A model generated the notes under the pieces. It saw only the letters and a list, made by a program, of their open reading frames with translations. It ran no database searches and was not told the DNA's origin. This document shows positions 18,760 to 21,968 of a stretch of DNA of 34,769 nucleotides, in pieces. This stretch comes from Viridothelium virens (Eukaryota; Ascomycota; Dothideomycetes; Trypetheliales; Trypetheliaceae): NCBI GenBank assembly GCA_010094025.1, contig ML991898.1, positions 1 through 34,769 on the forward strand, written 5' to 3'. Every line of letters begins with the position of its first letter. Position 1 is the stretch's first letter. The translations under genes and the position numbers were made by a program.

Positions 18760-19412
18760 ATGGTCCGAACCAGTGTCCTCAACGATGCCCTCAAATCTAT
18801 CAACAATGCCGAGAAGACTGGCAAGCGTCAAGTCCTAATCCGGCCGAGCTCCAAAGTCATCGTGAAGTTCCTTCATGTGATGCAGAAGCACGGTAAGTCA
18901 ACGCCTCTCACGTTAGTCGAGCGACGGCAACCACCCCCGAGTTGATAACTAGACGATGGTCTCAAATATACCTCTCCACGACTTTTGTCCTTTAAGTGCT
19001 CGGAAGATTGAAAACTTCTGCGAGAGTCTTACACGTTGCCCGAATCCAATCTGAAGTTCGACGTTTAACTCATCGCAATATGCTGACACTCGAGTCATCA
19101 GGCTACATCGGCGAGTTCGAAGAAGTTGACGACCATCGAAACGGCAAGATCGTCATCCAGCTAAACGGACGGTAAGGGCGTGTCCTGTCTCACCAGACGC
19201 CCCTGGCTAATACAAATTAAAGTATCAATAAGACTGGCGTCATCAGCCCTCGATATAATGTCCAGCTACGAGATTTGGAGAAGTGGGTAGTGAAGCTTCT
19301 GCCATCTCGTCAATTCGGTTTCATCGTTCTTACGACGTCCGCTGGCATTATGGATCATGAAGAAGCGCGTCGCAAGCATGTCGCAGGAAAGATCCTAGGT
19401 TTCTTCTACTGA
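18760..19412 (+). CDS. RPS22: 40S ribosomal protein S22 (uS8, S15a in animals)
   Basis: Exons 18760-18892, 19102-19171 and 19223-19412 encode 130 residues, the exact usual length. It is a small-subunit protein binding the central domain of 18S rRNA. The start [19 protein letters not shown], the block [20 protein letters not shown] and the end [20 protein letters not shown] followed by GKILGFFY are family hallmarks. Exon junctions keep [20 protein letters not shown] and [20 protein letters not shown] intact. Intron 1 (209 bp) is much longer than intron 2 (51 bp), common in fungal ribosomal-protein genes, and deserves a check for an embedded snoRNA. Confidence 0.97.
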
Positions 19413-19942
19413 GCCATTACGTATGATTTTCACAGAGTAGATTAGATGGTGTGTCTATAAGATACCCTAGCCCAAAAAGGAGATTGATTGAATTGTATCT
19501 GTCCTTTCGACCTCTCACTTGCGTAGCCTAGTAACAAGAGCGTCTAGCTCTAGGTAAAACAATCTGGCGCCCTAGATCATTTTTTCTCTTGTAGATGAGG
19601 ACTGGGCGGTACGTTCTTGCTCTGTAAGACTGAAGGCCCTGGTGAACAGGGGTGCGGCAAGTTGGGAAGAAAGGCACACTAATAGTCACTATACTCAAGC
19701 CACCATGTCATTGACAGAATCATCCAAGCTAAACAATCCTCTCCCTCCTCAAAAAAAGAAAAGCAAAATAAAAAAACTAAAAACGTCCAGTACCGGCAGC
19801 ATCACCATCGGTTCCATTCGTTTAAACGTACCTCCCGGGCCAGGCGAACTATTGGACCTCGGCTTATCGGTCCCTACATATCTAACATACCGCCTTCTGG
19901 CAAAACTCGTCGAGTCCCTTCTACCCGTCGACAATACCAGCA
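19413..19942. other. Intergenic region: RPS22 3' end and phosphatase promoter
   Basis: A plus-strand frame at 19642-20016 (lysine-rich, 124 codons) overlaps the start of the phosphatase in another frame. It could be a long upstream ORF but shows no conserved feature. Nothing else is supportable. Confidence 0.5.
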
Positions 19943-21333
19943 ATGCTGGATACCATCTATGTCGTTCGACATGGGGTACATTCGCAAACCTAAAGCCTTG
20001 GGTCAACCGAACATAGCTAATCATCCATTTAGTTCCGCTCAAACTGGGTCGTTGACCCGAAGAGCGGCAAATATACTAATAATATCCGCAGCCCTACCGG
20101 TATCGATGGCGATCCCGCGCTCACTAGCTACGGTGTGGAACAGTCCAAACAGCTCGCGCAGAGGCTGACGAAAATGGATGATCCCATAGAGACGATATAC
20201 AGCAGTCCGTTCTATCGTTGCGTTCAGACATTGAAGCCATTTATCCAAGGGTTGTACGAAGAAGGAAGTCCACCCGGCAGTAGCACGGTCAAGTACGAGC
20301 ATGGTCTCGGAGAATGGTTTGGAATCGCTGACTTCGAGCACCCTCAACCGGTGCAGTACGAGGTCCTCCAGGCGGAGCATTTTCCGTTCCTAGCTCAGGG
20401 GACGCTTTTTGGTGTCATTCCAAACCCCAAGGGCGAATCTATTGCCGGACTTCACGATCGTGTCGCACGAATTCTCAATGCCATCATCCAATTTGAAGAC
20501 AGGCGGCCGGAGCAGCCTCGAGCTCTCCTCATCTGCACACATGCTGCCGTCATGATAGCAATTGGGAGAGTTCTCACAGGCCACATGCCTGCAGATCCAA
20601 ATGAAGAGGACTTTCGTTGCGGCACCTGCAGTCTGAGTGAATACAAAAGGAAGTCTCCTCTACGAGCCCGAGAGGAATGGCAAGACTGGGAGAATGGCAT
20701 AGGAATAGCGGGCGGATGGGACGTGGCCTTAAACGGAGACTGCTCTTACTTGTCGAATGGAGAGGAGCGCACATGGTGAGTTGGAATAGTCATTGGCGCC
20801 TTTTATGTAAAGTCGTCGCTTTTGGTTTTCCCTTTTTTACCCTTCGTCCTTCCTTGAAAATCCTCTTGCAAGATTAGAGGTCTCCATCTTCCCTTCACTC
20901 ATCAACTGCAGGGACTTCAGCATGGAAGAACGATGAGAACGCGTATTTCCGTGATTGTTTAACAGAGGGAAGAAGTGTGAGATTATCTGATCATTAACAA
21001 CACAACTTTCAATCAACCGGTTACGTTTCCATCACTGTCTCATACGTTCGCCTATTCATTCTTTCTGCAGTTCTATATCCTAACGACGTTTTTGGTCTTC
21101 GATCTTTCATACGGCGTTATTCTTTTCCGTCTCACCTGCGACTTCAGATATGCCCCTTGTGTGCTTTTATGCCGTGGGTTGTGCCATGAATGACTCACTT
21201 ACTTACGTTTATCCTCGATCATGATAGGCACTTTCAAGGCGAAGAGGCGTTTTCCAAGGATCCAGAATCGGTAAATCCGCAGAGTCATGGGGGCCGGGGA
21301 GTCAGTGGACATGGAGAATCATCCAAGTTATAG
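19943..21333 (+). CDS. Histidine-phosphatase (phosphoglycerate mutase-like) family protein with C-terminal SKL
   Basis: Exons 19943-19975, 20033-20775 and 21228-21333 give 293 residues. The family uses a phospho-histidine intermediate; from memory, fungal relatives resemble the phosphatase domain of the TFIIIC subunit tau55, but the substrate is unknown. Catalytic features: RHG with His10 (split from the rest by a 57-bp intron with CTAAT branch), FRSNW, SSPFYRC with Arg73, and ICTHAAV with His181. Exon 3 follows a 452-bp intron (donor GTGAGT, acceptor ATAG) joined within the Trp259 codon. It adds HFQGEEAFSKDPESVNPQSH and a Gly-rich stretch ending SSKL, a type 1 peroxisomal targeting signal. 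If the intron is retained, the frame reads Trp259 and then TGA at once, giving a 259-residue form without the signal. From memory, relatives also carry a GEER.WHF-type tail, which supports the splice. Confidence 0.85.
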
Positions 21334-21968
21334 ACGTACTTCACCATTGGCAACATGGAGAAAGAGCTATCAGGACATGGGAACTGACTTCACCGCGGGC
21401 TGAGCTCCATGAGGGAGGGCGAAGAACCTGTCTACAGCTCTAAGAGACGCTATCATGACCAACGCTTTCTCCTCTGGAGGATTGTTATCATCAGGATGCG
21501 CTAGGATGCGGGCGCTTATGCGGCACATCTCGATCGTTTGGCTCGCGGTTTCGCCTCAGCGACACAGTCCACATGCTTCGCACAGGCCTTCAATACCATA
21601 ATCAGCACGATATATCGCACGTCAATCCACTCGTTATACATAACATGCACGAACAATGAATCAATCGATTTCTTCGATAACGCCGACTCCCAGCAGTTGC
21701 CAGCGCCGTGGCCAACATAGTTCCGTTGAAATAGCGAATCTCCGCTCAAAGTAGTCATTCTAGTAAAATTCGAACCTTCTTAAGTTATAATGAGAATTAC
21801 CCTTCTTTGTCCTTCTTTTACCGTTCGGTTCATCGTGTTTGGCGAAGAACGATCAAGCTTCGTCTCGGCCAAATCCAAAGCATCCATATCTTGCTGAAGC
21901 TCTCCAGCAAAACCCATAATGCTTAGATTATTCTTGTGGATGCCAGGGTCAGCGGCATGCACGAACAA
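21334..21968. other. Intergenic region between convergent genes; no gene seen
   Basis: It holds the 3' flanks of the phosphatase and the large membrane protein. A 62-codon minus-strand frame (21780-21968) begins directly after the stop of the membrane protein but has no feature that supports it. Confidence 0.55.

Follow-up and report, generated by a model that had tools for sequence, protein, structure and literature searches.

The fungal proteins described as cryptically peroxisomal in passages of three papers (PMC3798809, PMC12316961, PMC9549241) are metabolic enzymes, for example GAPDH, PGK, malate dehydrogenase and 6-phosphogluconate dehydrogenase. In A. nidulans, a peroxisomal isoform of PGK arises by differential splicing (Freitag 2012, as relayed in sections of PMC3798809 and PMC12316961), and GAPDH is reported to undergo stop-codon readthrough (part of PMC12316961). 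In Yarrowia, isoform transcripts of malate dehydrogenase differ by four nucleotides in intron size, and only one of them carries a functional type 1 peroxisomal targeting signal, or PTS1 (a passage of PMC3798809). PTS1-bearing phosphatases of other classes are already known – yeast Ptc5 and plant phosphatases appear in a section of PMC9549241 – and the literature searched, by title and abstract, yielded no peroxisomal histidine phosphatase in fungi.

A second point of reference is tau55 (Tfc7) of S. cerevisiae, in which a histidine-phosphatase domain is fused to the tau95-binding TFIIIC_sub6 domain (PF10419). To go by portions of two papers, this phosphatase domain is apparently uninvolved in Pol III transcription (PMC10781861) and dispensable for the interaction with tau95 (PMC3799434). 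Neither Tfc7 nor its relative YNL108C is named in the main text of a systematic study of the yeast peroxisomal proteome, as judged by a term search (PMC9513677).

The window discussed here is the whole 34,769-nt stretch of DNA analysed, contig C128 of the 30.7-Mb, 175-contig genome of Viridothelium virens; its genes bear introns and, to judge from gene content, appear fungal in character. One of them encodes a protein of the tau55 phosphatase type (Table 1), and the reading that we prefer, with a probability of about one half, is that of an SKL-tailed, free-standing histidine phosphatase made from an mRNA that normally loses its last intron by splicing. The 452-bp splicing as drawn, the function of the SKL end and the division of splicing among possible forms are all inferred.

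Table 1. Features of the histidine phosphatase gene and its proposed splice variants (window coordinates).
Feature	Position	Strand	Basis or remark
Exon 1, histidine phosphatase gene	19943..19975	+	MLDTIYVVRHG; Met aligned with yeast tau55 residue 1
Intron 1, 57 bp, GTACAT...TTTAG	19976..20032	+	Removal joins RHG to FRSNW, contiguous in yeast tau55
Exon 2, remaining histidine-phosphatase domain, to first two bases of Trp259	20033..20775	+	His_Phos_1
Proposed intron 2, 452 bp, phase 2, donor GTGAGT, acceptor ATCATGATAG	20776..21227	+	Putative branch site ACTTAC, 27 nt before exon 3
Shorter rival of intron 2, 136 bp, from the donor at 20776 to acceptor TCAACTGCAG	20776..20911	+	Protein end W-D-F-S-M-E-E-R
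TGA stop, reached at once on intron 2 retention	20777..20779	+	Unspliced translation
Proposed exon 3: last base of Trp259, 34 codons ending SSKL, TAG	21228..21333	+	Spliced translation
Codons TCC AAG TTA, C-terminal SKL, PTS1 consensus tripeptide	21322..21330	+	Sequence and spliced translation

The initial annotation had drawn the gene with three exons and 293 residues ending in SSKL, and had noted that retention of the last intron would give Trp259 and then TGA; renewed translation reproduced both. The spliced coding sequence of 882 nt, with its joins at 20775/20776 (TG/GTGAGT) and 21227/21228 (GATAG/GC), gives 293 amino acids ending ...SGHGESSKL before TAG, and omission of the second splice gives ...SNGEERTW before TGA. 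The match to the PTS1 consensus is found in the 452-bp-spliced model only. Stop-codon readthrough at W259 was considered and rejected: read by eye, the frame runs on as GTTGGAATAGTC... to a further TGA, and the residues before that stop are not PTS1-like. Upstream, an open reading frame of 103 residues (19705-20016, plus strand) with a strong start context (GCCACCATG) covers the start codon of the phosphatase in another frame; it has no Pfam match up to E 1 and, if included in the mRNA, could lower translation of the phosphatase.

The assignment to the histidine phosphatases, already made in the initial annotation, is borne out by homology. His_Phos_1 matches the whole protein (E 1.4e-17), and a phmmer search against PDB sequences returned 12 matches in all, among them tau55 (2yn0, E 3.5e-35, query residues 1-263; full chain 6yj6, E 2.4e-34) and YNL108C (2yn2, E 9.7e-34), the other nine being weaker UBASH3/Sts and ecdysteroid-phosphatase chains. 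In an alignment of three sequences – this protein, yeast tau55 and YNL108C – the RHG, FYRC, GEW and THAA motifs are invariant, and with them R9, H10, G11, R73, E105 and H181, which we take to be the catalytic residues. Invariant across the same three sequences are also W259 and F261, which flank intron 2 on opposite sides, so that conservation extends beyond the intron.

The Pfam listing for the protein has three families, with TFIIIC_sub6 not among them, and the one genome match to that domain falls in a separate gene on contig C70. The phosphatase is therefore no tau55 fusion, in agreement with what part of PMC10781861 says on the placement of the phosphatase domain in budding yeast, and a continuation of the gene into TFIIIC_sub6 was ruled out. 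Judged by homology, the protein is a free-standing relative of the tau55 phosphatase domain and YNL108C rather than a glycolytic mutase.

Other searches for relatives added little. Of the 14 NCBIfam families with an E of 1 or less, most of them phosphomutases and phosphatases of bacteria, none reached its own cut-off. His_Phos_1 matches 14 stretches of the genome, the present gene included, and a whole-protein genome search for a paralogue with a similar end listed one other place, on contig C2 (40% identity across 52 residues, E 0.11). Viral and prokaryote contigs, scanned twice each, gave 0, 21, 29 and 63 pattern matches, of which none was confirmed as an orthologue, and peptide strings of the protein, searched for in papers, found no match.

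How unusual intron 2 is can be gauged with a simple semi-Markov gene finder. Its self-training drew on 289 kb of the genome, made up of the window minus positions 19601-21400, 6 kb of C70, a stretch of 50 kb and two of 100 kb. The finder yielded 57 genes and 49 introns, a set that is probably incomplete and in which long introns are perhaps mispredicted; a first, stricter training on 200 kb, with 35 genes and 28 introns, was superseded by this run. The predicted introns have a median length of 61 bp, seven of the 49 exceed 200 bp and one exceeds 400 bp, while none of the 28 in the stricter run exceeds 200 bp. The claim that the 452-bp intron stands out thus holds as far as its length for this genome goes, although it is perhaps not unique; the same window also has a 209-bp intron, in the uS8/RPS22 gene.

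That shorter intron houses an H/ACA snoRNA of the snR44 family (18935-19083, plus strand; 38.1 bits against a cut-off of 33). In yeast, snR44 presumably lies in an RPS22 intron as well, and the host gene therefore looks conserved. Given this neighbour, the 452-bp intron might itself be long because it hosts a snoRNA or another RNA, with the SKL tail unrelated, an idea that is compatible with the other readings. It is nonetheless very improbable: no Rfam family reached its gathering score in the intron, a permissive scan restricted to the intron gave four matches, the best of them (20.5 bits, E 0.51) below its cut-off of 100, and folding gave a z of 0.57, with 68 of 100 shuffles at least as stable. 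A snoRNA in this intron is thus unsupported by the Rfam scans and by folding. At default settings the intron contains no repeats, it has no second match in the genome, and the repeat and promoter-like scans were uninformative.

The splice sites of intron 2 are of unequal quality. Its donor (ATG/GTGAGT) stands at the 92nd percentile of the 49 predicted introns, and acceptor 21227 with its best branch (ACTTAC) only at the 10th. The sole other strict acceptor for the donor at 20776 is that at 20911 (14th percentile), a rival site that the initial annotation did not mention; its product keeps the W-x-F pair and ends WDFSMEER, without SKL. Weak sites are not unusual in the gene set, the donor of intron 1 (4th percentile) and both sites of the malate synthase intron described below being examples. 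When acceptor, branch, length and coding terms are combined, the 136-bp intron ranks first among the 16 acceptors listed, about 6 nats above the 452-bp intron, which comes fifth, behind introns of 136, 145, 558 and 295 bp; the 558-bp choice creates a stop codon at the junction.

The exon that would follow has a weak coding signal. Its coding score, -3.0 to -4.7 nats, lends no support and resembles that of open intergenic stretches; values of -3.0 or below also occur in about 10% of exon-2 windows and in 58% of 113 open intergenic windows. Over its stretch, the exon 3 frame is not the best of the six, the top score (-2.3) lying on the minus strand. Composition, by contrast, shifts at the proposed boundary, with a rise at 21228 from a GC fraction of 0.43 and a purine fraction of 0.40 in intron 2 to 0.52 and 0.60 in exon 3. 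A purine fraction of 0.60 is the mean for the last 105 nt of predicted coding sequences and is reached by 20 of 754 overlapping noncoding windows; the best purine-rich segment extends to about 21426, past the exon 3 stop. Related proteins of filamentous fungi seem to continue from the Trp as W-H-F-x-G-D/E-E-x-F. This pattern, with which exon 3 (WHFQGEEAF) agrees, would speak for the exon; it enters none of the computed scores.

Could the SKL exon then be unreal, and its frame a coincidence, the gene ending either at the W259 stop or, through the 136-bp intron, in WDFSMEER? An ab initio decoder, which penalises long introns, does end the gene at 20779, with the TGA after W259; to this may be added the deficit of about 6 nats, the want of coding-score support and the fact that the 136-bp intron keeps W-x-F too. 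An end at W259, however, would forfeit F261, which all three aligned sequences share, and would give no reason for the strong GTGAGT donor; the rise in GC and purine at 21228 also speaks for the exon, albeit with a purine-rich stretch that continues beyond it.

The rarity of SKL by chance also tells against a coincidence. A control scan took, for all 57 predicted genes, the donors of the final 100 nt, joined them to acceptors up to 600 nt off and read the C-termini that resulted, with [SAC][KRH][LM] counted as PTS1-like and strict thresholds defined as those passed by both the phosphatase site and the PGK site discussed below. None of the 47 alternative isoforms was PTS1-like at strict thresholds (candidates in 13 of the 57 genes), and none of 211 at medium thresholds (30 genes); at very lax ones there were three among 1650 (52 genes), all of them the same end, NLSHL. 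The phosphatase gene has two strict candidates, of which one ends in SKL. Among the 57 predicted proteins as such, no PTS1-like end occurs, a sample too small to give a base rate of real PTS1 proteins.

With none of the 211 control isoforms PTS1-like, the SKL end goes beyond what chance would give, and the tag is probably, not certainly, functional; the proposal of the initial annotation that the spliced form carries a PTS1 is to that extent plausible. The case for exon 3 being real consists of one conserved residue (F261), the rarity of SKL and the shift in composition, set against weak splice and coding scores. On balance we consider an unreal SKL exon unlikely, while treating it as a serious contender.

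The initial annotation went further and proposed a switch, in which the unspliced mRNA would give a 259-residue cytosolic enzyme and the spliced one a peroxisomal form. The frame and the stop are as it described them, and the PGK gene of this genome offers an analogous arrangement. Nevertheless, retention gives NNG TRA in nine of the 11 phase-2 introns, as expected of phase-2 GTRA donors, so the stop after W259 is uninformative, and 43 of the 49 predicted introns contain an in-frame stop on retention. The 'complete-looking' retained protein is a mechanical outcome of a phase-2 GTGAGT donor. It is also slightly truncated compared with the yeast proteins, stopping two residues short of the last conserved residue, F261. 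The retained mRNA, if polyadenylated past exon 3, would have a 3' part of at least 550 nt, and a long 3' part can invite decay.

The malate synthase gene of the same genome (contig C8, 282832-286566; PF01274, E 3.5e-121) provides a further control. Its last intron, of 73 bp and phase 2, has the donor ATC/GTGAGT, and retention gives TCG TGA at once; the spliced product ends in SKL (...LLYNEVTTVGPAAPASKL; ...FLTSLLYNEVTTVGPAAPASKL). The donor stands at the 22nd percentile, and acceptor and branch at the 16th. Malate synthase is expected to be peroxisomal, and since it has the same layout, the layout alone gives no indication of a switch. With a stop typical of phase-2 introns, the same layout in malate synthase and a W-x-F pair that crosses the intron, the proposed retention switch finds no support, and we consider it decidedly improbable. 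Because the pair spans intron 2, splicing is favoured as the default, and the main product would then carry SKL.

Should a switch exist at all, retention is no likelier a mechanism than alternative use of acceptors 20911 and 21227, since W-x-F is kept in either product of the latter. One donor would then be joined either to 20911 (WDFSMEER) or to 21227 (SKL), the choice setting the peroxisomal share. These are the only strict candidates, they are similarly weak, and both restore W-x-F; of the tagless forms, the retained one lacks F261, whereas the 20911 product has a Phe at that position. The malate dehydrogenase of Yarrowia is a precedent for a PTS1 selected by intron size (as described in part of PMC3798809). 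Against these points, a rough estimate puts a chance W-x-F at about 1% per acceptor, or a few per cent over several, and the use of either acceptor is itself a prediction. Nothing in the DNA demonstrates that splicing is used as a switch here, and an acceptor-based one seems doubtful.

The PGK gene (contig C25, 176620-180351; PF00162, E 8.0e-92) bears on how readily splice-made tags might arise in this organism. Unspliced, it ends ALSSK before TAG, by which point the Pfam PGK profile has been matched to its end (379 of 379); an extra 70-bp intron (GTAAGT...TTTGATAG), with an acceptor at the 8th percentile, gives the end ALSTFNSRL, and three other strict acceptors give ends without a PTS1. PGK here is thus a possible candidate for a cryptic, splice-dependent PTS1 (SRL). 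The SRL reading matches A. nidulans PGK, which makes splice-made PTS1 ends plausible in V. virens, and its acceptor is as weak as that at 21227, so a weak acceptor is compatible with such an end. In the GAPDH gene (contig C6, 577716-581189), the frame stays open for 20 codons after ...KVDGNA and TGA. Its last residues, VVKL, form a weak PTS1-like end, which would come to light if the stop were read through. Two genome matches to Pex14_N exceed the cut-off, an indication that the organism has components of peroxisomal import.

On the preferred reading, then, the gene would encode a free-standing histidine phosphatase of the tau55 N-terminal-domain/YNL108C type, and its last intron would normally be spliced out, so that the domain regains its conserved W-x-F end and acquires a tail with the PTS1 tripeptide SKL at its terminus. 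The main product would reach peroxisomes, at least in part, by the Pex5 route; retention, or use of the 20911 acceptor, would give a tagless form, which is less likely to reflect a dedicated switch than to be minor or unproductive.

If true, this would add a histidine phosphatase to the fungal enzymes with a splicing-dependent peroxisomal tag. Finding such a signal on a free tau55 relative would offer a lead to the original role of the phosphatase domain. A bolder version is speculative and, in our estimate, rather improbable: a free tau55-type phosphatase would be divided between cytosol or nucleus and peroxisomes by a choice of 3' splice sites 316 nt apart, both preserving W-x-F, and the enzyme whose domain was joined to the RNA polymerase III factor TFIIIC in budding yeasts would, in other fungi, have been a phosphatase linked to peroxisomes.

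Set beside known systems, the protein is homologous along the entire domain (residue 1 or 2 through 263 or 264) with the N-terminal domain of S. cerevisiae tau55 (2yn0, 6yj6) and with YNL108C (2yn2), at 36 and 35% identity, and has in common with them, besides the motifs named above, a C-terminal GEE-x-x-W-x-F; unlike tau55, it lacks the TFIIIC_sub6 fusion and has the proposed SKL tail. Like malate synthase of this genome, the gene as drawn has a phase-2 GTGAGT last intron, a TGA on retention and a last exon ending in SKL, whereas the malate synthase intron is short and its splicing is expected to be constitutive. As in A. nidulans PGK, the PTS1 would emerge only after an extra splice; in contrast to PGK here, whose unspliced form completes its Pfam profile, the unspliced phosphatase ends before the last conserved residue. 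And as in Yarrowia lipolytica malate dehydrogenase, the PTS1 would be selected through intron size, with the differences that the introns differ by 316 nt rather than 4 nt and that the proteins are unrelated.
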